The position numbers and the translations under genes are program-made. From a virus, in the IMG/VR virus record IMGVR_UViG_3300031839_001100, positions 1 through 28,273 of that record: a stretch of 28,273 nucleotides of DNA; one strand, 5' to 3'. Shown here in pieces: positions 9,393-26,782 of the stretch (within the stretch, counting starts at the first letter, position 1; every line of letters begins with the position of its first letter). A model generated the notes under the pieces. The model was not told the DNA's origin, did no database searches, and saw only the letters and a program-made list of their open reading frames with translations.

Positions 9393-9745
9393 TGGTCGCC
9401 GCGCTCTACACCCGGCTCGAAGCCACCGCAAAGCGGCTGATTGCCAAGTACGGCAAGGCAGCAGTGTTGGTGCGTGAGACCAAGACAGGCCCCGCGCACG
9501 ATCCATCTGTCGTTGAGACGCCGTATTCCTGCATGGTCGCGGATATCGGCTACAGCATCACCGACCGTGACGCCTCGCTGGTTCAGGTCGGCGACAAAGT
9601 AGGGCTGATGTCGACAGCTGTCGAGGTGACACCGGAAAAGGGCGACAAGCTGCAGATCGATGGCGGGACGTATTCGTTCGTCGATCTGAAGCCGCTCAAC
9701 CCTGGCGGGCTGGTGCTGCTCTACGAGTACCACGCGAGAAAGTAG
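9392..9745 (+). CDS. probable head-closure / neck protein
   Basis: 117 residues from ATG 9392, which shares its A with the preceding stop; GTG 9389 is an alternative. Predicted as helix at the start (LYTRLEATAKRLIAKYG) followed by beta-strands ending VLLYEYHARK. This size, layout and position (after the DnaT-like adaptor, before the F-like gene) are those of phage head-closure or stopper proteins. I do not recognise a specific signature, so the call is from context. Confidence 0.55.
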   Translation: MVAALYTRLEATAKRLIAKYGKAAVLVRETKTGPAHDPSVVETPYSCMVADIGYSITDRDASLVQVGDKVGLMSTAVEVTPEKGDKLQIDGGTYSFVDLKPLNPGGLVLLYEYHARK

Positions 9746-10803
9746 TGGCCGCCACCCCGCGGGACGTGCTCCAGGAGATGGACCGGCTGGAGCCGCTGAT
9801 TGCAGCCGCCTTTCTCGCCGAGATCCGCACCATTGTGGGCGATGCCCGCGTGAGCGAGTTGGAGGAACTGATCCGGCGCGGTAGCGTCGCCGAGATTGCG
9901 GCAGCGTTGGGTATCAGCGCCTCTGCCCTGGTGGGGCTGCAAGAGGCTGTGCGGTCCACCTATCTGCGCGGCGGCCAGTTTGAGGCGAAGGCTATGCCGG
10001 TGCTGCGCCGCCCCAACGGGGCACGGCTGCGGCTGAACTTCGACATTCGCTCGGTGAGGGCGGAGAACTGGCTGCGCGCCCATTCCAGCCAGATGGTGGT
10101 TGAGCTGCAGGCAGGTCAGTTGGAGGTCATCCAGCAGGCGCTGTCGGAAGGCGCTCGGGCAGGGTGGAACCCGCGGCGCACTGCGCTGGAACTGGTGGGG
10201 CGCGTGAGCCCCCAGACAGGCCGGCGGACTGGTGGCCTGATCGGCCTTTCGAGCCAGCAGTCCGAATGGGTGCTGACGGCTCGCGAACAGCTGCTCAGCG
10301 GCGACCCCGCCAAGATGCGGCGCTATCTGTTGCGACAGCGACGCGACCGACGCTTTGACGGCATCGTGAACCGAGCCATCGCCGCCGGCAGGCCGGTTGC
10401 GGTGAAGGACGTTGACCGGATTGCCGGCCGCTACGCGGATCGTCTGTTGAAGCTGCGAGGCGACAACATCGCCCGCACCGAAACGTTGGCCGCCTTCAAC
10501 GAGGCGCGGGATGAGACCTACCGGCAGGCCATCGATATGGGTCTGAACCCGGAGAACGTCACCAAGGGCTGGAACACCATCAACGATGGCCGGCAGCGGC
10601 ACACGCACGGGGCCATGCACAAGCAGCGCAAGCGATTCGACGAGCCGTTCGTTTCTCCATCAGGGGCACGCCTCATGCACCCGGGCGATACCAGCCTCGG
10701 CGCAGGCGCCTCCGAGATCGTGAATTGCCGGTGCGTGCACACCATGAAGATCGACCATCTTGCGGAGGCGATGAATGGCCCGAACGTTCTCGGCATCCGT
10801 TGA
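9745..10803 (+). CDS. head morphogenesis protein (Mu F / SPP1 gp7-like)
   Basis: 352 residues from GTG 9745, overlapping the preceding TAG by one base. The C-terminal region has the family hallmarks: NIARTETLAAFNEARDE, W.TINDGRQRHTHGAMH, then HPGD and a final NCRCVHTM with a Cys pair. The N-terminal half is helical. These minor head proteins enter the capsid with the portal and help assembly or ejection. Its place after the completion genes rather than next to the portal is slightly unusual. The last 29 nt overlap the next gene. Confidence 0.85.
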   Translation: MAATPRDVLQEMDRLEPLIAAAFLAEIRTIVGDARVSELEELIRRGSVAEIAAALGISASALVGLQEAVRSTYLRGGQFEAKAMPVLRRPNGARLRLNFDIRSVRAENWLRAHSSQMVVELQAGQLEVIQQALSEGARAGWNPRRTALELVGRVSPQTGRRTGGLIGLSSQQSEWVLTAREQLLSGDPAKMRRYLLRQRRDRRFDGIVNRAIAAGRPVAVKDVDRIAGRYADRLLKLRGDNIARTETLAAFNEARDETYRQAIDMGLNPENVTKGWNTINDGRQRHTHGAMHKQRKRFDEPFVSPSGARLMHPGDTSLGAGASEIVNCRCVHTMKIDHLAEAMNGPNVLGIR

Positions 10804-11194
10804 CGCGTTCGTCCGCAAGTCGAAGCGGCGCACGACAGCCGTGTTCCGCGAGAGTGTGCAGCGGCTCGGAGAAGAGGCCCAGACCCTCCGGGTGGAGGGG
10901 GGCAACATGCCCTACGACACAGGTTTCCTGCGTGCCAGCTACATGGTCTCGCTGGACGGTGTGCCCTTTGGTGACGGGGTGAATCCCGACCGCAAGGGCC
11001 AGTACCCGTACAACCCCGCTCCCATAGAGCTGGTGATCGCCACAGCGCAGTACGGCGACGTCCTCTGGGGCGGGTGGGTCGCTGTGTATGCCAAGTACAT
11101 GGAGCACCGCTACGGCTATCTCCGCAGCGCGGTTCAGAACTGGCAGTCAATCGTTGATGGGGTGGTGACCGAAATGAAAGTGAGGTTCCCGTGA
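10775..11194 (+). CDS. HK97 gp10-like neck / tail-completion protein
   Basis: 139 residues. The MPYDTGFLRASY segment, a central P.ELVIATAQYGDVL, and VYAKYMEHRYGYLRSAVQNWQSIV are typical of HK97 gp10-like proteins acting at the head-tail joint. The start overlaps the F-like gene by 29 nt, and its end overlaps the next GTG (GTGA). A soluble basic protein with no signal peptide. Confidence 0.8.
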   Translation: MARTFSASVDAFVRKSKRRTTAVFRESVQRLGEEAQTLRVEGGNMPYDTGFLRASYMVSLDGVPFGDGVNPDRKGQYPYNPAPIELVIATAQYGDVLWGGWVAVYAKYMEHRYGYLRSAVQNWQSIVDGVVTEMKVRFP

Positions 11195-11607
11195 ACGATG
11201 CCGACATCTGGAATGCCTTCAGCCTGGCTGTCGAGGCATTCGCGAACTCACAGTCACCGGCTGTTCCGCTGATCGCTCAAGGCGTTGGGGGCGAGCCGCC
11301 GAGTGAGGGCCTGTGGATCGAGACCAAGTTTTTCCCCAACAAGTCGGAGAACTACGGTCTGGCAGCGAGAGGCCCGACGATCCTCAAGGGGTTCTGTCAG
11401 GTCTCCATCGGCTGTCGGCCGGGCGTTGGGGTGATGGACAGCTACGAAATGGCCGACCTGGTGTCGGCTTCGTTCAAGAAGGGCACCGTTCTGGGGCCGG
11501 CAAGAGTTGAGGTGGAACCTTGGAACTCGTCCCCGCTGGAGGAACCGGACCGCGTCTATGTGGCCATCACCATCCGGTATCGAGCCAGCGTGACGAGAGA
11601 CGACTGA
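11191..11607 (+). CDS. tail terminator / completion protein (DUF4128-like)
   Basis: 138 residues from GTG 11191. It begins with a helix (IWNAFSLAVEAFANSQ), then IETKFFPNKSENYGLA, a QVSIGCRPGVGV strand, and VEVEPWNSSPLEEPDRVYVAITIRYRA at the C-terminus, as in DUF4128-type tail terminators. It caps the tail tube and joins it to the neck. In related phages the tail-tube gene usually follows directly; here 3.4 kb of glycosyltransferase-like genes intervene. Confidence 0.78.
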   Translation: MNDADIWNAFSLAVEAFANSQSPAVPLIAQGVGGEPPSEGLWIETKFFPNKSENYGLAARGPTILKGFCQVSIGCRPGVGVMDSYEMADLVSASFKKGTVLGPARVEVEPWNSSPLEEPDRVYVAITIRYRASVTRDD

Positions 11608-11612
11608 AGTGG

Positions 11613-12188
11613 GTGATCTGCGCATCGGGGCCATCGATCCTGAATACGGACTTCACCCATCTTCGGCGGTTCCGGTCGTGGAACTTCATGGTCGTGAACA
11701 ACACCTGGGAGTTGCTTCCCTGGGCCGACGTTCTTTATGCCGGCGACCTGCAATGGTGGGACCGATACGGCGCCGCCGCCTCGGCCTTCACTGGGGAGAA
11801 GTGGACGCGCGAGGAACTGGCTGCCGCCCGGTACCGACTTCGGCAGGTGAGGCCACGCAAGGGCAGGGGCCTTTGCACTGAGCCCGGGGTGGTCCACACC
11901 GGAGGCAACAGCGGATACCAGGCTATCAACCTGGCGTACCACCTCGGCGCCCGGCGGATTGTTCTGCTCGGCTTCGACATGCACCGGCAGCGCGGCGGGC
12001 ACTGGCACGGCGAGCACGTCGGCATGCTGAGCGCCCCTGATTCGCACATCCGGGTTTGGATCCGCCACTTCCGGCAGCTCGCCAGAGACCTTCGGCGCGC
12101 TGGCGTCGTCGTCACCAACTGCACACCAGGGAGCGCGCTCACGCACTTCCCGTGTGCTCCACTGATGGAGGCATTGCGATGCTCGTAG
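11613..12188 (+). CDS. GFDM-family Rossmann-like protein, putative glycosyltransferase
   Basis: 191 residues from GTG 11613; a CTG at 11604 giving an MKWVICASGPS start is the alternative. The order is ICASGPSI near the N-terminus, VVNNTWELLPWADVLYAGD with WW, GGNSGYQAINLAYHLGA, RIVLLGFDM, and HWHGEH. The layout (GPS turn, Asn after strand 2, Asp in YAGD, GNSG helix, LGFDM strand) resembles DUF115/MptE-like and GT42 sialyltransferase-like Rossmann folds. That is inference by pattern, not a confirmed family. It opens the five-gene cassette and overlaps the next gene by 10 nt. The closest relative in the window is the gene at 14359. Confidence 0.65.
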   Translation: MICASGPSILNTDFTHLRRFRSWNFMVVNNTWELLPWADVLYAGDLQWWDRYGAAASAFTGEKWTREELAAARYRLRQVRPRKGRGLCTEPGVVHTGGNSGYQAINLAYHLGARRIVLLGFDMHRQRGGHWHGEHVGMLSAPDSHIRVWIRHFRQLARDLRRAGVVVTNCTPGSALTHFPCAPLMEALRCS

Positions 12189-12883
12189 GCATCACCCGAG
12201 TCCGGGATGAGGCGCTGATCCTGGAGGACACGCTGCAGCACTTCCTGGCCCGCGTGGACCGGGTGCTGCTCTACGACGACTGTTCGACCGACAACAGCGT
12301 CGAGATTGCCCGTTCGTTTGACCGCGTCCAGGTGATTGAGGGTGACGAATGGCGGGTTGACCGCGTAGCCGAGAACACCCGGCACCGGCGAATTCTTCTG
12401 GATGCGGCCGTCGGCGCGGACTGGTGCCTGTGTTTTGATGCCGACGAACGACTGGAGGGCGATCTGCCGGAAATGACCGGCGATGCCTTTGCCTTTCGGC
12501 TGTTCGACGGCTACCTGACACCGGAATGCGCTGATCCGTACCGCGGCGGCGAACTTTCGGAGCTCCGCCGGATGTGGGGCCCCGAGTATCGCGACATCGT
12601 GATGCTGTTCCGGGTGGCTGCTGCACAGTACGACCGGCCCGGCCAACGGGCGCCGACAATCAGGGGCGTTCAGCAGCTCGCCGATGTTCGGGTGCGCCAT
12701 TACGGCAAATGCCTAAGCGTCGAGCACTGGGAGGAAACCTGCCGGTACTACGCCGATAACTTCCCGGCCCGGTTCGCCGAAAAGTGGCGTGATCGCATGG
12801 GAAAGGCCATCCACACTGCCAGCGACTTCGGTCGCCCGCTCGTGGCCTGGGATGGACTGCCGGCAGTGGAGGTGGCGCTGTGA
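12179..12883 (+). CDS. GT2-type (GT-A fold) glycosyltransferase
   Basis: 234 residues from ATG 12179, with GGAGG just upstream. The N-terminal GITRVRDEALILEDTLQHFL and LLYDDCSTDNSVEIA give the nucleotide-binding strands. FDADERL is the DxD-like metal site (about residue 85). These are the marks of Glyco_tranf_2_4-type GT2 enzymes, which move sugars from nucleotide-sugars. The C-terminal half (VRHYGKCLSVEHWEETCRYY) is the probable acceptor region. No membrane segment is present, so it is a soluble cytosolic enzyme. It overlaps its neighbours on both sides, which means coupled translation. Donor and acceptor are unknown. Confidence 0.85.
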   Translation: MLVGITRVRDEALILEDTLQHFLARVDRVLLYDDCSTDNSVEIARSFDRVQVIEGDEWRVDRVAENTRHRRILLDAAVGADWCLCFDADERLEGDLPEMTGDAFAFRLFDGYLTPECADPYRGGELSELRRMWGPEYRDIVMLFRVAAAQYDRPGQRAPTIRGVQQLADVRVRHYGKCLSVEHWEETCRYYADNFPARFAEKWRDRMGKAIHTASDFGRPLVAWDGLPAVEVAL

Positions 12884-13668
12884 AGGTGCTGCTGGCAGGT
12901 AAGTACGTTCCCAACGGTGCACGGCCAATAGGCGGTGTGCAGTCGTGGATCGGCACGGTAGCGGTCGCCATGCGGCGGGCCGGCCATGAGGTGACGGTGT
13001 GGGGGCCGGAGTTCGGCGCGCTGCGTGGGCGGTTCGATGTCGGCGTGATCGCCAACACGATGCACACCGGGTCAGCGCTGGCGCACTGCGAACGAGTAGT
13101 GGTGGTGTCGCACGGGATCATCCCGGATGAGCGCCCCCCGGACGGCGTGCCGGTGGCGTTCACCAGCGAGGGAGTGCGCGCTCACTGGGGTGGTTCCGGA
13201 CCTGTCATCCGGCAGCCGATCGACCTCGAGTTCTGGCGGGATGCCGGGAAGCCGCGGGCCGGGATACTGCGGTACAGCTACCGCGCTGGCCTGCCGTGGC
13301 TGGAGCGGGTCGCACGCGACATGGGCATGGGTTACCAGCACCTGCGCAGCGTGAGCCATGAGCGGGCTCGGGATGCCATGCAATCGGCAGCCTGTGTGCT
13401 GGCGACTGGAAGGGCTGCACTGGAGGCGATGGCCTGCGGCGCGCCGGTGGTGATCATCGACCACCGGGCGGCCTATCAAGGCCCGCTGATGGACGTCGAC
13501 ATCGCCACGGCAATGGAGCGGAACTACAGCGGGCGAGGTGGCGTTCCCCCGAGCCCCAATGGCGTGCGCCGCGCCATCACCCGCGCGATGGAGGAAGGCA
13601 GCCTCCGGGCACACGTTGAACAGCACCACAACGCCGACCGGATAGCAGCCGACCTGCTGCGCCTGTAG
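12880..13668 (+). CDS. GT-B fold (GT4/GT1-like) glycosyltransferase
   Basis: 262 residues from GTG 12880 (overlap GTGA with the previous stop). It begins KVLLAGKYVPNGARPIGGVQSW, the Gly-rich acceptor loop of GT4 enzymes. In the C-terminal half VLATGRAALEAMACGAPVVII is the donor-site motif (E..ACG.PVV). At 262 residues it is shorter than typical GT4 proteins (350-400), so loops or the linker are reduced. No signal peptide or membrane helix is seen. It belongs to the same coupled run as the GT2 gene before it and the GT-A gene after it. Confidence 0.82.
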   Translation: MKVLLAGKYVPNGARPIGGVQSWIGTVAVAMRRAGHEVTVWGPEFGALRGRFDVGVIANTMHTGSALAHCERVVVVSHGIIPDERPPDGVPVAFTSEGVRAHWGGSGPVIRQPIDLEFWRDAGKPRAGILRYSYRAGLPWLERVARDMGMGYQHLRSVSHERARDAMQSAACVLATGRAALEAMACGAPVVIIDHRAAYQGPLMDVDIATAMERNYSGRGGVPPSPNGVRRAITRAMEEGSLRAHVEQHHNADRIAADLLRL

Positions 13669-13675
13669 GAGACCC

Positions 13676-14359
13676 ATGATCTACATCATCACCCCGACCG
13701 GAGGCCGGGAGGAAGGCCTGCGCCTGCTCGCCGGATACCTGAACGCACAAACCTACGCCGGCCCGATCACCTGGGTGGTGGTCGATGACTGCGATCCCGT
13801 CACCGAGATTCCGCCCATGCGGCCGGGGATCGCGGTGGTGAGCGTGGTCCCGGACTGGACATGGAAGCCCGGCGACAACACCCAGTCGCGGTGCATGGCT
13901 GAGGCGCTGGCCCATTGCCAGGACGATGCTGTCGTGGTGGTGATGGAGGACGACGACGCTTACCTGCCGGGGCACATCGAGAACGTTGTGGGGGCGCTGG
14001 GTTCCGCCAACCTGGTGGGTGAGCGGGTCAGCACCTACTACAACGTGGCAACTCGCCGCTGGCGGCTGCTGCCAGGCCGGTACCACGCCAGCCTTTGTTC
14101 GGTGGCCTGCAAGGGCTCTGCACTGGCGATGCTCCGCGAGATCTGCGCCGTCGGCAGCCGGACCATCGACATGGACCTGTGGAAGCGGTACCGCGGCCCG
14201 TCGAAGCTGCTGGAGACCCGCAATGTGGTCGGCATAAAGGGGTTGCCCGGCCGGGCCGGCATCGGCGTCGGGCACCGGCAGACATTTGGTGACCCGGACC
14301 CCGAAGGCGCTGTGCTGAAGAAGCTGCTGGGGCCGATGGCTGATCAATACCTGGGGTGA
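13676..14359 (+). CDS. GT-A fold glycosyltransferase, second GT2-like
   Basis: 227 residues, with TAGGAG (13667-13672) as ribosome site. YIITPTGGREEGLRLLAGYL and WVVVDDCDP give the GT-A nucleotide-binding half. VVVVMEDDDAYLPGHI holds the acidic metal-binding motif. Later come a Ser/Cys/Ala-rich strand, IDMDLWKRY (a candidate catalytic Asp region) and GLPGRAGIGVGH. No membrane segments. It differs clearly from the GT2 gene at 12179, so the cassette has two independent GT-A enzymes. The stop overlaps the next ATG. Confidence 0.8.
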   Translation: MIYIITPTGGREEGLRLLAGYLNAQTYAGPITWVVVDDCDPVTEIPPMRPGIAVVSVVPDWTWKPGDNTQSRCMAEALAHCQDDAVVVVMEDDDAYLPGHIENVVGALGSANLVGERVSTYYNVATRRWRLLPGRYHASLCSVACKGSALAMLREICAVGSRTIDMDLWKRYRGPSKLLETRNVVGIKGLPGRAGIGVGHRQTFGDPDPEGAVLKKLLGPMADQYLG

Positions 14360-14949
14360 TGATGACGACAACCATCATCCTTGCCTCTGGTCCCAGCATG
14401 ACGGCGGAGGACGCAGCAGCGACCCGCGGCGCCGGCCAGACCATTGCCATCAGCAACACGGTGAACTTGGCGCCCTGGGCGGAAACGCTCTACAGCGGCG
14501 ACCCGGCGTGGTGGTGGTACTACCGCGAATCGCTGACGTGGTTCTGCGGGCGACGTGTTTGCCTGTCGCACGAGACGTGGACGCCGCCGGGGGGCGTGAA
14601 GCCGTTCGCGCGTGAGCATGGTGACGGACTGGGCCATGCCGGCATCCGCGCCAACGGCAACTCCGGGGCTCAGGCCATCAACCTGGCGGTGCTGGAAGGC
14701 GCCACCAACATCGTGTTGCTCGGCTTCGACATGCAGCACACCAACGGCCAGCGCCACTGGCACCCGGACCATCCGGCTCCGCTGGGGAACTTCGCCCCCG
14801 GGATGCCGGAACTATGCAGGACCAAGTTCGACATCCTGGCTGCTGACCTATCGGCGGCCGGCATCCGCGTGATCAACGCATCACGCAACACCGCATTGAC
14901 CTGCTTCGAGCGCATGCCCATTCGGAAGGCGCTGGAGGCGGTTTCCTGA
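14359..14949 (+). CDS. GFDM-family Rossmann-like protein, paralogue of 11613 gene
   Basis: 196 residues from ATG 14359 (ATG 14362 and GTG 14356 are alternatives). The order IILASGPSM, AISNTVNLAPWAETLYSGD with WWWYY, GNSGAQAINLAVLEGA, NIVLLGFDM, then HWHPDH repeats the motifs of the gene at 11613 almost step for step, with moderate overall identity. A duplication inside the cassette, or two captures of the same family, is likely. It is the last gene of the cassette and is followed by a strong terminator. Activity unknown; see the 11613 entry for fold options. Confidence 0.65.
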   Translation: MMTTTIILASGPSMTAEDAAATRGAGQTIAISNTVNLAPWAETLYSGDPAWWWYYRESLTWFCGRRVCLSHETWTPPGGVKPFAREHGDGLGHAGIRANGNSGAQAINLAVLEGATNIVLLGFDMQHTNGQRHWHPDHPAPLGNFAPGMPELCRTKFDILAADLSAAGIRVINASRNTALTCFERMPIRKALEAVS

Positions 14950-14950
14950 A

Positions 14951-14993
14951 TCCGGTTCGCCGGATGTAACGCCCGCCCTCGGCGGGTTTTTTT
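14951..14993 (+). terminator. terminator closing the glycosyltransferase cassette
   Basis: A TCCGG-TTCG-CCGGA hairpin (14951-14964, UUCG-type loop) is followed by the main stem CCCGCC (14972-14977) with GGCGGG (14981-14986) and seven T (14987-14993). Only 23 nt separate the T tract from the tail-tube ATG, so no promoter fits between. Confidence 0.85.
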
Positions 14994-15016
14994 ATGCCCA
15001 AAGAGAGGACATTCCC

Positions 15017-15484
15017 ATGTCTGACGCATTCAGCCATAGCGGCGACAAGCTTTACATCAGCACCACTCCCCAGAACGACGACCTCACCGATCACGTGAGC
15101 GAGGGGTTCCCCAGCCTCAGCTACACCGAGGTGAAGAAGATTGGCTCGGTCGGCGAGTACGGCATCAACACCAACGTCATCAGCTACGACACCTGGGGCC
15201 GCGACGTGAACCTCAAGGCCAAGGGCACTACCAATGCCGGTGACCCGGCCGTGGAGTGCGCGCGCGATGACACCGATGCCGGGCAGATCGCCATGCGTGC
15301 GGCCGGCGCCCCGACCAACAAGAACAGCTACGCCTTCAAGGTCGAAAAGCAGGACGGCTCCATCGACTACCTGCGCGGCTTGGTCATGGGTCCCAACAGC
15401 CCGTCAGGCCGTAACGAGGACTTCGACCTGCACGTGTTCACGCTGGGCCTGCAGCAGGCACCGGTCCACATCGTCGCCCCGTAA
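15017..15484 (+). CDS. major tail tube protein
   Basis: 155 residues with GAGAGGA (15003-15009) upstream. The protein is beta-rich: SGDKLYIST, YTEVKKIGSVGEYG, VISYDTWGRDVNLKAKGTTN, NSYAFKVEKQDG and a FDLHVFTLGLQ end, as expected for a siphovirus tail tube protein. It stands directly before the chaperone and tape-measure genes, the canonical order. Its length is normal. Weak terminator-like hairpins follow. Its transcription must read through the terminator 23 nt upstream or start inside the preceding gene. Confidence 0.85.
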   Translation: MSDAFSHSGDKLYISTTPQNDDLTDHVSEGFPSLSYTEVKKIGSVGEYGINTNVISYDTWGRDVNLKAKGTTNAGDPAVECARDDTDAGQIAMRAAGAPTNKNSYAFKVEKQDGSIDYLRGLVMGPNSPSGRNEDFDLHVFTLGLQQAPVHIVAP

Positions 15485-15511
15485 GGGGTTCACCAGTTCT
15501 GGCGGGATAGG

Positions 15512-15548
15512 GCTTGCCTGACAAGCGCGGCCTGATCCGACCGCGTTT
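15512..15548 (+). terminator. weak terminator-like hairpins after tail tube gene
   Basis: GCTTG/CAAGC (15512-15526) is followed by CGCGG (15526-15530) pairing with CCGCG (15541-15545) and TTT. These share one base and cannot both form fully. The placement after a highly expressed structural gene matches the capsid gene hairpin. Confidence 0.45.
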
Positions 15549-15588
15549 CCCGCTGGATTCATTTTCGGATCGATCACGAGGATCACTC

Positions 15589-16008
15589 ATGGATATTTCA
15601 ACCATCGCGCCTGTTGGGCGCCCCATCGAAATCAAGCATCCGGCGACCCATCAGCCGACAGGCCTGGTGCTGCATCTGCTGCCGTTCACTGACCCCAAGG
15701 TGAAGGCGGTGCAGCGCAAGATCACCAACGCCCGGCTCAACCGCCGAAACCAGAAGCTGACCGCCGAGCAGATCGAAGCCAACTCGATCGAGATCGCGAT
15801 GGCGGCGGTTTCCGGCTGGGAATGGAAGGGCGACGCCAGTTTCAATGGCCAGAAGTTGGCCTTCGATCGCGACAACCTCCGCACCGTCCTGTCGGTGGAC
15901 TGGATTCGCTCGCAGGTCGATGAAGAGCTGGGAGACGAGTCGGGTTTTTTCGAAGCATCTCCGCAGCCCTCTGCGACTGCATCGAGTTCCACTGTCGGTA
16001 CCGCGTAG
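15589..16008 (+). CDS. tail assembly chaperone (gpG-like, unshifted product)
   Basis: 139 residues from ATG 15589 with ACGAGGA (15577-15583) upstream. The N-terminal beta region (GRPIEIKHPATHQPTGLVLHLLP), a charged helix (VKAVQRKITNARLNRRNQKL) and VSGWEWKG then DRDNLRTVLSVDWIRSQVDEEL are typical of tape-measure chaperones. After the slippery site at 15945 the zero-frame tail is a Ser/Ala-rich low-complexity end, as expected for the G product. It coats the tape measure protein during tail assembly and is absent from the virion. Confidence 0.85.
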   Translation: MDISTIAPVGRPIEIKHPATHQPTGLVLHLLPFTDPKVKAVQRKITNARLNRRNQKLTAEQIEANSIEIAMAAVSGWEWKGDASFNGQKLAFDRDNLRTVLSVDWIRSQVDEELGDESGFFEASPQPSATASSSTVGTA

Positions 16009-16334
16009 CCGACGAGAACGGCGAGACGCGGCTGGAACGGAACCTTCGGTTCGGGCAGGAGAACCCGCCCGAGCCGGAGGTGCCATTTCAGGTTGATCAC
16101 GTCTGGTCGTGGTTCTGGGAAATCTGCCGCCGGCGCCGGAAAGGGCCGGAGGCCTTCACCCATGCCGACATCCTGGCCTGGGCCGAGGCGACCCAGACCG
16201 ACATCAACCCCCAAGAGATCCAGATGATCACCGACATGGATGACGTCTGGATGGCCACAACGTCCGCCGAGATCGCCGCCTACCACGAGCGGCAGCGGGC
16301 CAAGTCAGCCACCAAAACCCCCCGGAAGAGGTAG
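15589..16334 (+). CDS. tail assembly chaperone frameshift product (gpGT-like)
   Basis: A -1 shift at 15945-15951 joins the first 121 codons to a downstream frame open to TAG 16334, giving about 248 residues. The added part contains ALCDCIEFHCRYRV, VDHVWSWFWEICRRRRKGPEAFTHAD and EIQMITDMDDVW, a conserved-looking domain without its own good start (the first ATG at 16080 would delete a third of it). This is the standard G/GT arrangement before the tape-measure gene. The T part recruits tail-tube protein to the tape measure. The shift efficiency is unknown. Confidence 0.82.
15945..15951 (+). other. -1 ribosomal frameshift slippery heptamer T_TTT_TTC
   Basis: In the zero frame the codons read GGT TTT TTC. 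Both tRNAs can slip one base back onto TTT TTT, which continues in the frame that stays open to 16334. It is a perfect X_XXY_YYZ site in the expected place. I did not identify a convincing downstream stimulatory structure by eye. Confidence 0.85.
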
Positions 16335-16336
16335 CC

Positions 16337-19300
16337 ATGGACATTGCAGAGATCGGATTTCGAGTCGACAGCAAGCCACTGGATGCTGCCGCTTCCAGCT
16401 TGGACAAGATGGCTTCATCGTCAACAAAGACCGAGACGGCATCCAGCCGCCTCAACAGTCGATTCGACCAGATGATGAAGCTTCTTGGCCCGGTTGGGAC
16501 AGGGATTCGCTCGATCGATCAGGCCATGGTCAGCGTTGCGGGCGACATGCGAGCTGTCACGACTGCAACACAGCGCTACGAGCAGCATTTGATGCGGCTT
16601 GAATCTCAGTTGGTGGAGGTGACGGCCGAGCAGCGCCGGACCAGTTACGTCATCGCGCAAGCCGCCAACGCCCAGGTCGACGCGTCCCGAAAAGCGGAAT
16701 CACAAGTCGCCAGGGTCAATGCACAGTACCAGCGGCAGACGGACATTCTCGGTGGGCTTCGCCGTGCCTACGGGTTCCTGCTGACGGGGGTCGCCGGATA
16801 CGGTGGGGCGCGTGTTGTCAGCGAGCTGACCCGAGTCAACGATCTCTATACCTCCCTCGAAGGCCGGCTGCGGCTGGTGACACGGGAGACGGAGAGCCTT
16901 GCTGATACCCAGGCGCGACTGTTCCAGGTGGCGCAACAGACCACCACCGCCTACGAGGCGACAGTCAACCTCTATACCCGGCTGACCCGCGGCGCGAAGG
17001 ACGTCATCACCAGTCAGGAAGACATGCTGCGGATCACCACCGCAGTGAATCAGAGCTATCTCGTCAGTGGGGCGACGGCCCAAGAGGCCGCGGGCTCGCT
17101 GATTCAGTTCACCCAGGCCCTGCAGTCCGGCGTACTACAGGGCGAAGAACTACGCTCCATCCGCGAGGGCGCGCCCCGTCTGTTCGAGGCCATCATCCAG
17201 GGCGCACAGGAGACGTCGCCGTGGCTTGAGGTAACCCGCCAGAATTTCCGTGACCTCGCCGCCGAAGGGAAGATCACCACCGAGGTGATCGCGCGTGCGC
17301 TGCTCAGCCAGGCGGACGCAATCGACCGCGAATACTCCACCCTGCCCATGACGGTTGAACGGGCGATGACCCGGGTTCGGAACGTGGTCGCAGACTCGTT
17401 TGCTGATGCAGACCTCGGCCCGCTGATTGCCTCGATCGAAGAGCTGGGAGAAACCCTCAGTGATCCAGCCGTACAGCAAGGCCTGGTCGGAATGGCAACT
17501 GGTATCGCCAATGTGACGGCCGCATCTGTAAGTGCAGTTTCGTGGATTGCTCGGCTCAATACAGAGTTCACGCAGCAAGTGAAGGACGCTTGGGAAAACG
17601 CCAACATTCTTGAACGTCTCACGCTGATCTCGTTTCCCTATCAGAAGATCGGCATCTTCTCTGACACGTTGGCCGGCATGAATCGGAACCTTCACGAAAC
17701 TGCCAACGCGGCAGTGGAGGTGAATGCCGCAATTGCGCCGATGTTCTCCCAACTGGAACGCATCATCAACGGGCCCTCTTCGGGGCTCCCGCTGGTTCTG
17801 AAGGAGGTGGGTCAGTCCTTCTTTGAATGGGGCCGTGGCGTCGTTCCTGTTTCGCAGGCAACCGAAACGCTCAACGAGAAGGTGCAGGCACAGATCAAGC
17901 TGCTGGGGCTCACCCTCGAGTACATGAGCGCCGGCGCATCGGCTGCCGATGCGGAGACCCGCGCCAAGTACAAGCTGGCCGGCGCCACCGATGCCGAGAT
18001 CGATGCATTGCTCGGCATGGAAGCCCGCAAGGCCCGCATGATCGACCTGCGCGAGGGCGAGACTGCGGCGATCAATGACCAGATCGCCACCTTGCAGCGC
18101 GAAAACCAGCTCATGCGGCAAGGGGTCGATGCTGACGAGGCGCGGTACCGGGCGCAGCTTGAGGGGTCATCTGCCCTCGAGCAGCAGCTCATGGCCGAGC
18201 AGCGAGCGAACGACCAGCTTCGCGAAAGCCAAGAGCAGCGCCGGCAGGTGATGGACGACATCACCAAGGCCCAAGGCATCTACAACAACATGCTGGCCGG
18301 CATGAGTCGGCAGGACGCCGTGTGGCTGGCCGACTACGAAGCCGCTGACCAGTACCAGCGCAAGCTGATGGAGCTGACCCGCGCCATCGAGGACACCGAG
18401 GCCGGCCGACTCCAGGCGCTCGAAGAAGACAAGGCGATTGCCAAGGCCATGGCTGATCAGCTCGACGAAACCCAACAGGCCATCGACCAGTTCCTGAACA
18501 CGGATTCATTCGCCACCCGCGCTGCAGAGATTCGCGATGCACTGGGCTCCATTGGTGACCCCATCGTCGGTCTCATCGATGGCTTCGAGACGATGGCCCG
18601 GGCCGCCGACCAGTATCAGGAAGCACTCGGCAAGATCGCAGACAGCGTCGATAAAAAGTTCCTATCTGAGGACGACGCAGACGTCGAGCGCCTGAAACTA
18701 CAGGGCAAGATGCTCAAGCAGCAGATCGGCATCTATGGCGACCTTGCCGGCGCTGCCGCCAACTTCTTCGAGGAAGGCTCCACGGGGTACAAGACCCTTG
18801 AATCGGTTTCGACCGCGTTTTATGCGGTAGAGCTCGCGATGATGGCGGCGAACGTGGCCGAGAAGCTGGGCCTGATCGGCACTGACGTTGCGCAGACGGT
18901 TGCCGGAGAGACTGCGAAACAAGGCGCACTGGCAAGCACCGCCATGGCCCAGGCGATTGCGGCATTGCCCCCGCCATTCAACTCTCCATTGATCGCCGCC
19001 ACAGCAGCGGCGCTGGCTGCCTTCGGCGTGGCGAACAGCTTCTCCGGCAGCGGCGGCGGCGGTGGCCTCGGCCGTCTCCCCAGCGAGTCGCGCGGAGTCG
19101 GCACCGTTTTTGGTGACCCTGAGGCGACGAGCGAGAGCATCGTCAATGCCATCGAGATGCTGGTGGATGTCAACGAGGAGGGCCTGCGCATCAATCAGGC
19201 CATGCTCAACAGCCTGCAGGCGATTGAACGCGGATTCAACGGCATTGCGCCTACGCTGATCAGTGAGTTGGGGGTTAGGACGGGAACGTTCAACCGCATG

Positions 19301-24402: not shown

Positions 24403-25332
24403 ATGGCCATCAAACGACTCGGCATCCTCCCGGTTGCCGACAGCCCCTTGCTGGGCACCGATCAGTTCCCGGTCAGCCGCGACGGCACCAACGTCAAGCG
24501 CGCGCCTATCAGCGCCGTCGTCAGCCTCATCACCGCAGACCTGAACCTGGGTGACGTAGCGCAGGCAGAAGACGCCAGCGGCGTGCCCTACAACCCTGGC
24601 AACCCCGGCAACTGGTTCACCACCGCCCCGGACGACGTGGCCGAGGGCCTCGACAAACTGGCCGCGCAGGATGTTGGCCTCGACAGCCGTATCACTGCGC
24701 TCGAAGGCGCGCCAGACCCCACCTACAGCGCCAACGAGATCAGCTACACCGTCAGCACCAGCGCGCACTGGTCCCCAGACCCCACCGAGGTGGCGGCCGC
24801 CCTCAACCAGCTGGCCAGCCGCGTCAGCACCGTCGAAAGCTCTGGCGCCGATGGCAGCTACGACCCCGACTTCCCCGAAGACTGGCCCAGCCCGGTGCCG
24901 GAATTCGTCACCGAGGGCCTGGACATCCTCGCCGCCCGTGCAACCGACCTGGAAGAGCGCGTCACCGATCTGGAACAGATGAGCGGCGGTGCCTCGCCGT
25001 CAGGGGGCGGTGGGGGCAGTTGCAGCGCCGTCAGCGTCAACGACAGCGGCACCACCTACGACGTCGCCGCCACCCATGTATGCGTCTACCGCCGGTTCAC
25101 CAACAGCGGCACCAAGACCGTCAACGTGCGCCCCAACAGCACCGAGGCCCTGCCGGATGACGGCGAGTGGCACTTCCGCAATGTCGGTGCCGGTGCCCTC
25201 ACCATCGCCGAGGGATCAGGCGTCACCGTCACTGCACCGGCGGGCGGCTCGCTCGTTGTGCCGCAGGGCGGGACCGTCACGCTCAAGCGGGTGGGGCTGA
25301 ACGAGTTTGACCTGTTTGGGGTGACGTCGTGA
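24403..25332 (+). CDS. tail fibre with three coiled-coil repeats
   Basis: 309 residues. The N-terminal region (LPVADSPLLGTDQFPVSRDGTN) looks like a fibre attachment motif. Three related segments follow, centred on AEGLDKLAAQDVGLDSRITALE, VAAALNQLASRVSTVES and TEGLDILAARATDLEERVTDLE: short heptad coiled coils that would trimerise. A poly-Gly hinge (about 198-204) leads to a C-terminal beta domain with Gly- and Val-rich strands. Coupling to the LamG-like gene (overlap GTGA) suggests the two work together at the tail tip. Confidence 0.72.
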   Translation: MAIKRLGILPVADSPLLGTDQFPVSRDGTNVKRAPISAVVSLITADLNLGDVAQAEDASGVPYNPGNPGNWFTTAPDDVAEGLDKLAAQDVGLDSRITALEGAPDPTYSANEISYTVSTSAHWSPDPTEVAAALNQLASRVSTVESSGADGSYDPDFPEDWPSPVPEFVTEGLDILAARATDLEERVTDLEQMSGGASPSGGGGGSCSAVSVNDSGTTYDVAATHVCVYRRFTNSGTKTVNVRPNSTEALPDDGEWHFRNVGAGALTIAEGSGVTVTAPAGGSLVVPQGGTVTLKRVGLNEFDLFGVTS

Positions 25333-26015
25333 TTCCAGGGATTACTGCTGGGCGACGGTTCTCAGCCAATTACTATGCAGAGGTATTGGCCGATACTCCC
25401 GTTGCGTACTGGAGACTTGGAGAATCATTGCTTTCAGAGCCAATGGCGGATGAAGTCGGCGGCAATGACGGAACCTACAGCGGAGGAACACTGGGATTTC
25501 CTGGAGCAATTTTAGGGGACCCGAACACTGCATATAGGCCCGGCACGTCCGGTTATGGCGTAGTCCCGCACGTAAGCGCTCTCGCGCTGGTCTTTCCATT
25601 CAGTATTGAATTTTGGTTTAAGCACACTCTAATCTCAAATGTTGTAATGATGGACAAAAACGCAAATGCGGGGATATCAATCCAACGATCTGCGTCAGGT
25701 GAACTTATTATGAATCTCGGCGGCACCGGAAGCGCTAACAGAATATCAACCTCAGGGGCCTTCAATGACGACGAGTTTCACCATTGCGTCTTCATAGCGG
25801 ACCCCATGGGGGTCGGAAATATGGCTTTCGTGGATGCCGTTGACGACACCGGCGACGATGGAAATACCGCGAATAACGTAAACATTGGCAGCTGGTACAT
25901 AGGAAGCCGCGCCGGCTCTTTCGGTTACGAAGGAATAATTGACGAAGTCGCTTTCTATAACTACGCCCTGAGCCCCGAGAGAATCGCCGCACACTATGCT
26001 GCAGGGACAGGCTGA
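25329..26015 (+). CDS. LamG/concanavalin-like lectin, likely receptor-binding protein
   Basis: 228 residues from GTG 25329. The pattern is AYWRLGES near residue 26, DEVGGNDGTY, an IEFWFKH strand, EFHHCVFIAD, and WYIGSRAGSFGYEGIIDEVAFYNYALSPERIAAHY at the end, which is the LamG_3 (concanavalin A-like) fold used to bind glycans. Codon and base use is clearly more AT-rich than the flanking genes, so it probably came from elsewhere. In tail loci such domains bind surface sugars. It follows the fibre gene and ends at a terminator. No catalytic motif for depolymerisation is recognised. Confidence 0.78.
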   Translation: MIPGITAGRRFSANYYAEVLADTPVAYWRLGESLLSEPMADEVGGNDGTYSGGTLGFPGAILGDPNTAYRPGTSGYGVVPHVSALALVFPFSIEFWFKHTLISNVVMMDKNANAGISIQRSASGELIMNLGGTGSANRISTSGAFNDDEFHHCVFIADPMGVGNMAFVDAVDDTGDDGNTANNVNIGSWYIGSRAGSFGYEGIIDEVAFYNYALSPERIAAHYAAGTG

Positions 26016-26061
26016 TCCGAAGCAACCCTTTCAATCGGCGGAGGTCATCGTCGTTTCTAAC

Positions 26062-26083
26062 AACCGCCTCCGGGCGGTTTTTT
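26062..26083 (+). terminator. rho-independent terminator between tail and lysis genes
   Basis: AACCGCC (26062-26068) pairs with GGCGGTT (26073-26079) over a TCCG loop, with six T from 26078. It is 34 nt before the ATG of the first lysis gene, so lysis genes need readthrough or a promoter inside the lectin gene. Confidence 0.85.
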
Positions 26084-26117
26084 ATTGCCCATTCACTTCA
26101 AACCACGAGGCTGATTT

Positions 26118-26432
26118 ATGGATGCCGAAGCCATCAACGCACGTCTGAAGAATCTCGAAGACCTCAGCGTGCAGACACAAGCCGCCGTCAACCGCATGGC
26201 CACATTGCTGGAGAGCATCGTCCGCATGGAAGAGCGGCAGGTCGCACTAGGCGAGAGCCTGAAGCGCGCGCATAAGCGGATCGACGGGCTGGATACCAAC
26301 AACCGGGAGTGCGAGCGCTGGCGCAACCAGCGTGACGGCGCGGCATGGCTGACCGGGAAGTTCGCCGCGCCGTTGTGGGCCGCTGCTGCATCTGCCGCGA
26401 CCGCGGCCGCCATGCACGCGGTGCTGGCATGA
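26118..26432 (+). CDS. holin-associated / XhlA-like membrane protein
   Basis: 104 residues. The N-terminal two thirds is a charged heptad-bearing helix (INARLKNLEDLSVQTQAAVNRM, then MEERQVALGESLKRAHKRIDGL). The C-terminus has a single Ala-rich membrane segment (APLWAAAASAATAAAMHAVLA). This coiled-coil-plus-one-TM layout, directly before a multi-span membrane gene and endolysin, is that of XhlA-type holin partners. No signal peptide. The stop overlaps the next ATG (ATGA). Confidence 0.65.
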   Translation: MDAEAINARLKNLEDLSVQTQAAVNRMATLLESIVRMEERQVALGESLKRAHKRIDGLDTNNRECERWRNQRDGAAWLTGKFAAPLWAAAASAATAAAMHAVLA

Positions 26433-26782
26433 AACGCGAGATCCAACGATTCGCCGAGTTCATCGGCTGGCTGCCGCTGCAGGTCGCACTGGCCATCATG
26501 GGCGTGGTGGTGCTGGGCGGCATGGCCCGCGGGCTGGGGCCGGACCTGCTCGCATGGCTGGCGGAGCTGCCGATCTATCTGGCCTTCGCCTTCGCGGCGC
26601 TTGGCATCAGCTATCTGGCCTGGCGGCGGTGGCGGATGCCACTGGACGAAGCCCGCAAGGCTGAACTGTGGGAGCGGTTGATGGCCGGCGAGCGCGGGGC
26701 TGTCGTGGTCTATGTCGTCAACGCTGTGTTCTGGGTTGCTGTGCTGTGGTTGGCGCTCGACTTCTTCCGGCCTGCGCGCTGA
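26429..26782 (+). CDS. putative holin (three membrane segments)
   Basis: 117 residues from ATG 26429; the frame is open from 26345, but that part is the shadow of the gene before. Three hydrophobic segments are visible: LQVALAIMGVVVLGGMA (about 17-33), LPIYLAFAFAALGISYLAW (about 47-65), and VVVYVVNAVFWVAVLWLAL (about 93-111). A charged loop (RRWRMPLDEARKAELWERL) precedes the third. Class I holins have three such segments. Position before the lysozyme gene supports a timing pore. Its end overlaps the lysozyme start by about 37 nt. Confidence 0.65.
   Translation: MKREIQRFAEFIGWLPLQVALAIMGVVVLGGMARGLGPDLLAWLAELPIYLAFAFAALGISYLAWRRWRMPLDEARKAELWERLMAGERGAVVVYVVNAVFWVAVLWLALDFFRPAR

Follow-up and report, generated by a model that had tools for sequence, protein, structure and literature searches.

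A five-gene sugar-transferase cassette in the structural operon of a tailed virus and its probable role in virion glycosylation

A cassette of five genes for predicted sugar transferases lies between the tail terminator and tail tube genes of IMG/VR virus record IMGVR_UViG_3300031839_001100, and it probably glycosylates virion proteins during assembly. The stretch analysed (the window) is the 28,273-base record, which carries no completeness estimate and is probably a fragment. Genes related to two members of the cassette, GFDM and GTA, were found in viral contigs at five gene boundaries between the major capsid protein (MCP) and tail tube genes. More tentative is a broader proposal, namely that the GFDM-GTA core may be a widespread, phage-specific and previously unrecognised protein O-glycosylation system, exchanged as a unit among many unrelated tailed phages and inserted at any of these boundaries, with GT2, GTB, a methyltransferase and a second GFDM as swappable additions that would tune the glycan coat of the virion. 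Contigs and loci used for comparison are designated by L numbers.

The cassette consists of five densely packed open reading frames (ORFs) on the + strand. GFDM1 (11613..12188; PHROG 4603, E 5e-50) encodes a putative sugar transferase that is sialyltransferase-like and has a predicted MptE-like/DUF115-type fold. It is followed by GT2 (12179..12883; PF13704, E 1.3e-10), for a family 2 glycosyltransferase, and by GTB (12880..13668), for a GT-B type glycosyltransferase of group 1/4 predicted from sub-threshold matches to PF00534 and PF13692 and a conserved motif. GTA (13676..14359), for which the PF00535 match is just below the cut-off, encodes a glycosyltransferase assigned to the GT-A fold by its model, and GFDM2 (14362..14949, with alternative starts at 14356 or 14359; PHROG 4603, E 3e-43) encodes a second protein of the GFDM type that is 36% identical to GFDM1. 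An earlier sequence-only reading of this DNA had described five overlapping genes between two tail genes. The coordinates and the order were confirmed, and both flanks are real, namely a tail terminator gene on the left (11191..11607, + strand; PF13554, E 1.2e-12; PHROG 179, E 5e-17) and a major tail (tube) protein gene on the right (15017..15484, + strand; PHROG 158, E 3.4e-16), but GTB and GTA do not overlap, being separated by 7 nt. The gene order in the window is that of a siphovirus-type structural operon, with TerL, portal, protease, decoration, MCP, Ad1, Hc1, MuF, Neck1 and tail terminator genes before the cassette, and tail tube, tail assembly chaperone and tape measure genes after it, the last assigned by size and position. 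Several predicted sugar-modifying enzymes are thus encoded on one strand inside a virion structural operon, as in the mycobacteriophage Corndog.

The two flanking tail genes, claimed to be neighbours as a rule, are indeed adjacent in the cultured phages CUB19 and PSA-2T (portal 53-55% identical), which have no cassette and in which the tail terminator gene directly precedes the tail tube gene at 12 and 64 bases, respectively. In the related contig L005, the entire cassette lies one gene earlier, between the Neck1 and tail terminator genes, and there the terminator and tube genes are adjacent.

Searches of viral contigs matched 31 contigs with GT2, 218 with GFDM, at least 384 with GTA and 36 with GTB; alignment queries were needed, as scans with MuF or one GTA sequence gave no matches. 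Of the at least 384 GTA contigs, the best 80 were examined, with neighbours called by tblastn at E 1e-3. Removal of redundancy left 65 GTA genes (<90% alike). For 60 of these 65, the neighbours fit a placement between the MCP and tail tube genes. Since the set was fetched by sequence and not by position, this placement is not a selection artefact. Five slots were distinguished: MCP|Ad1 or MCP|Hc1 (12 genes), Ad1|Hc1 (5), Hc1|Neck1 (12), Neck1|tail terminator (10) and tail terminator|tail tube (3, in L171, L172 and L188, plus the window); in the remainder, one side is missing or a gene was undetected. The suggestion that its position makes the cassette a distinct version is not supported, and a unique position was rejected, as three further contigs have a cassette in the same slot, others have theirs in one of the four remaining slots, and cassettes of several enzymes were already known.

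A GFDM gene is nearby in 49 of the 65 non-redundant GTA loci. Among the 45 loci with both neighbours known, GFDM is nearby in 41, GTB in 21 and GT2 in 7, and a methyltransferase is present in some cassettes. As most relatives carry GFDM and GTA with no detectable GT2, these two genes appear to form the core. The placement was also seen from the GFDM side: among 34 non-redundant GFDM loci with sufficient flank, a structural gene lies within 3 kb upstream in 26 and on some side in 27, and in none is it on the opposite strand. Independent viral contigs show much the same gene sets in much the same order; hence the five-gene arrangement is more than chance.

The sugar-transferase motifs FDADE, EAMACGAPVV and EDDD named in the sequence-only reading are present in the window and conserved in relatives, so that the check for loss of catalytic motifs turned up a single irregularity, a GT2 row (L012) that is gapped at FDADE. 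From its sequence, GT2 can be assigned with confidence to the family 2 glycosyltransferases, as it combines a PF13704 match above the cut-off with the acidic, DXD-type metal-binding motif FDADE. The nearest solved structures by profile are SunS (E 5.5e-8) and GmaR (E 4e-7), both of them protein glycosyltransferases. The GTA model (AF2, pLDDT 91) matches the GT-A enzyme SpsA (E 1.4e-7, probability 1.00), and the motif EDDD is invariant across 8 sequences; GTA is thus likewise predicted to pair a GT-A fold with an acidic metal-binding motif. For GTB, every Pfam GT1/GT4 match is below the cut-off, but the profile matches a tetrahydrobiopterin glucosyltransferase in the PDB (E 3e-4) across the C-terminal GT4-type motif GR.A.E..AC..PV...D.R, which is conserved.

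The GTA profile gave no match at E 1e-20 among 754 sampled bacterial genomes and was positive in 7/7 virus records, which argues that GTA is a phage gene family. Among 50,697 cultured phage records, tblastn found no match to GT2, GTB or GTA, nor to two more distant GTA relatives, and a DNA search of cultured phages with the cassette interval also found none.

The libraries know no family called GFDM; what stands of that label is a set of related proteins with a predicted MptE-like/DUF115-type fold that fall in PHROG 4603 ('alpha-2,3-sialyltransferase'), which both GFDM1 and GFDM2 match. The family profile aligns with the GT42 enzyme Cst-II over about 50 residues (E 9e-4), with GPS, SG and G-D motifs in common. 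Asp122 and His130 of GFDM1 are conserved residues. The Pfam model PF01973 (MptE-like) is sub-threshold on GFDM (21.2 bits, as compared with a cut-off of 34.6). The AF2 model of GFDM1 (pLDDT 95.6) matches viral folds in BFVD at TM 0.6-0.84, several of them named MptE-like. Thus, GFDM is likely to be a sugar transferase, as judged by profile and model. The DUF115/MptE-like group includes Maf, which glycosylates flagellin.

The cassette moves between phages. In the GT2 tree, the cassette genes, the window's included, form one clade (support 100/99; L004, labelled 'virus' there, belongs with the cassettes). Within it the window groups with L003 and L004, whose head genes have no relation to those of the window detectable by tblastn, and not with L005, although the MCPs of L005 and the window share 60% identity; this conflict between the GT2 clade and the head genes argues for transfer of the module. 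Contig L171 has a similar cassette in the window's slot with no GT2. In L008, GTA and GFDM are fused in a single ORF (L008:9463-10665), and in L018 GFDM and GTB are (L018:4307-7369); therefore the fused enzymes probably act together, which suggests one pathway. A joint Neck1-GFDM ORF considered in L013 was rejected, as the two matches lie in different frames. A separate observation is a cassette divided over two slots (L251:5730-8463), with GFDM after MCP and GTB-GTA after Hc1, like that of phage D3.

Cytoplasmic glycosylation of virion proteins is favoured because the genes are placed with late structural genes, membrane proteins are absent (no transmembrane segment in the five proteins, maximum KD19 1.34, and no flippase), GT2 resembles protein glycosyltransferases, and GFDM has a predicted MptE/DUF115-like fold. 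The five soluble enzymes would be made late, at the same time as the proteins of the head and tail, and would use the nucleotide sugars of the host as donors. At least one abundant virion protein (that of the capsid, decoration or tail tube) would receive a short glycan before or during assembly. GFDM and GTA would be the core, one of them attaching the first sugar in the manner of the flagellin glycosyltransferase Maf (PMC4065374). GTB and GT2 would then extend the glycan or add branches to it; the role of the second GFDM may be to add a further residue or to serve another acceptor. A role in assembly had been put forward before, with tail, capsid, DNA or host surface as possible targets; that role remains likely, and among the targets the evidence favours virion proteins.

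Several observations weigh against this assignment. Cellular cousins of GT2 (38-47% identity), which have no phage structural neighbours in the bacterial scan, are accompanied in three of the examined genomes (L124:6611-9964, L154:5880-11046 and L161:6739-10186) by a GT-B gene and by ABC transporters that are Wzt-like and of the O-antigen type; hence surface-polysaccharide pathways may be the source of GT2 and GTB. Viral GT2-GTB pairs that are more distantly related adjoin PhoH, exonuclease and helicase genes. Foldseek found no fold match of the GFDM1 model in the PDB, giving meaningless matches only, so that the transferase activity proposed for GFDM1 is drawn from weak sequence similarity. 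The MCP, tail tube and decoration proteins of phages with a cassette have no obvious Ser/Thr-rich insertion, compared with cassette-free relatives, that could mark an acceptor. The finding that pmgO of phage P1, a GFDM homologue, is non-essential by CRISPRi neither supports nor excludes virion glycosylation.

The O-antigen-type neighbourhood of the GT2 cousins would suit a cassette that, late in infection, alters a host surface glycan (lipopolysaccharide, capsule or S-layer glycan) and so aids progeny release or blocks re-adsorption to debris, and so would the resemblance of GFDM to GT42 enzymes, among them a lipooligosaccharide sialyltransferase. We nevertheless regard this as unlikely: the cassette has no membrane protein, flippase or lipid-linked glycosyltransferase, the 60 placements between capsid and tail tube are not moron or lysis regions, and GTA was not found in the sampled bacteria. 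Likewise, a Gtr-type serotype-conversion cluster is not indicated, the five proteins giving neither membrane segments nor a Gtr model match. The cousin locus in L154 additionally contains an ABC-2 membrane subunit.

The lack of an acceptor signature in the major proteins would also be expected if the target were a dedicated accessory or minor virion protein (a fibre, a decoration or a cassette-encoded protein) swapped between phages. Some cassettes do hold extra ORFs with no glycosyltransferase match that are candidate acceptors of this kind, namely a weakly T4 gp9/10-like ORF together with an LRR/DUF285 ORF (L250:5619-7004) and an ORF of 547 aa (L179:4427-6070), but the window's own cassette contains none, and we think such a target rather improbable. 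Glycosylation of modified phage DNA bases before packaging, for which well-known phage glycosyltransferases and the lateness of packaging provide some grounds, is very improbable, as no thymidylate-synthase/dCMP-hydroxymethylase homologue (PF00303) was found in the window record and seven cassette records with positive controls, although this is not proof of absence because the window is a fragment; a Tet/JBP search was empty too, with an uninformative control.

Virion glycosylation by multi-enzyme cassettes has a precedent in Corndog, where an O-methyltransferase and three glycosyltransferases (gp35-gp38) lie between the portal and protease genes and were proposed to modify the capsid; few capsid peptides were recovered by mass spectrometry (PMC4351075). 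Experimental evidence for glycosylation of the virions of Corndog, Che8 and Myrna by phage glycosyltransferases, at the capsid and tail tube, is reported (Freeman et al. 2023, cited in PMC12363180 and PMC12691614). Corndog resembles the window in having several glycosyltransferase genes as a block within the virion structural genes; it differs in the position of the block and in the O-methyltransferase, and no sialyltransferase-like pair has been described for it. The Corndog glycosyltransferases, which were not compared individually, gave no match to GT2, GTB or GTA in the tblastn search of cultured phages.

The Pseudomonas phages D3 (orf7, orf12 and orf13) and PAJU2 (gp10-gp12) carry, in the region from capsid to connector, a GFDM homologue (33-41% identity) together with a methyltransferase and an unknown protein, but have no homologue of GT2, GTB or GTA by tblastn, and their slots differ from that of the window. 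In phage P1, pmgO (33% identity to GFDM) is near pmgP and the glycosyltransferase gene pmgQ, but these lie outside any capsid-to-tail-tube interval. In Tetraselmis viridis virus S20 (L122, NC_020840), two sialyltransferase-annotated genes lie between the MCP region and Hc1, along with genes for a GT-D enzyme, a GT2 and a methyltransferase; the virus is uncharacterised, and its enzyme families and slot are different. The recorded host of S20 is a green alga, but S20 has the gene order and the proteins of a tailed phage, with a large glycosyltransferase/methyltransferase cassette, and probably infects an associated bacterium.

Structural operons with cassettes of several enzymes are thus already known from Corndog, PAJU2 and S20. 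The new element is breadth and regularity, with a GFDM-GTA core at five gene boundaries in unrelated phages, of which no prior description was found in the literature searched; nor did that literature yield a functional study of phage sialyltransferase-like or pmgO virion genes. If the proposal is true, glycosylated virions would be common in phages far outside the mycobacteriophages. Antibody recognition of phage particles is reportedly affected by their glycans, which may also influence adsorption and stability. A gene for an EDDD GT-A enzyme plus a sialyltransferase-like gene near a capsid gene would serve as a genomic marker, and the proposal is directly testable because the cultured phages D3, PAJU2 and P1 carry part of the system.

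Downstream of GFDM2, at 14971..14987 on the + strand, is an intrinsic terminator-like stem-loop with a T-run. It had been called a strong terminator; the stem has 7 pairs, 6 of them G-C, and a terminator function is plausible, but it is not exceptional, since the scanned region contains 6 terminator-like sites, as compared with 3.7 +/- 2.1 expected by chance. No sigma-70-like promoter was found in window positions 9500-16500. Downstream of the tail genes, positions 25000-26500 have a G+C content of 0.56-0.57, as compared with 0.60-0.71 elsewhere in the window, possibly indicating recent acquisition.

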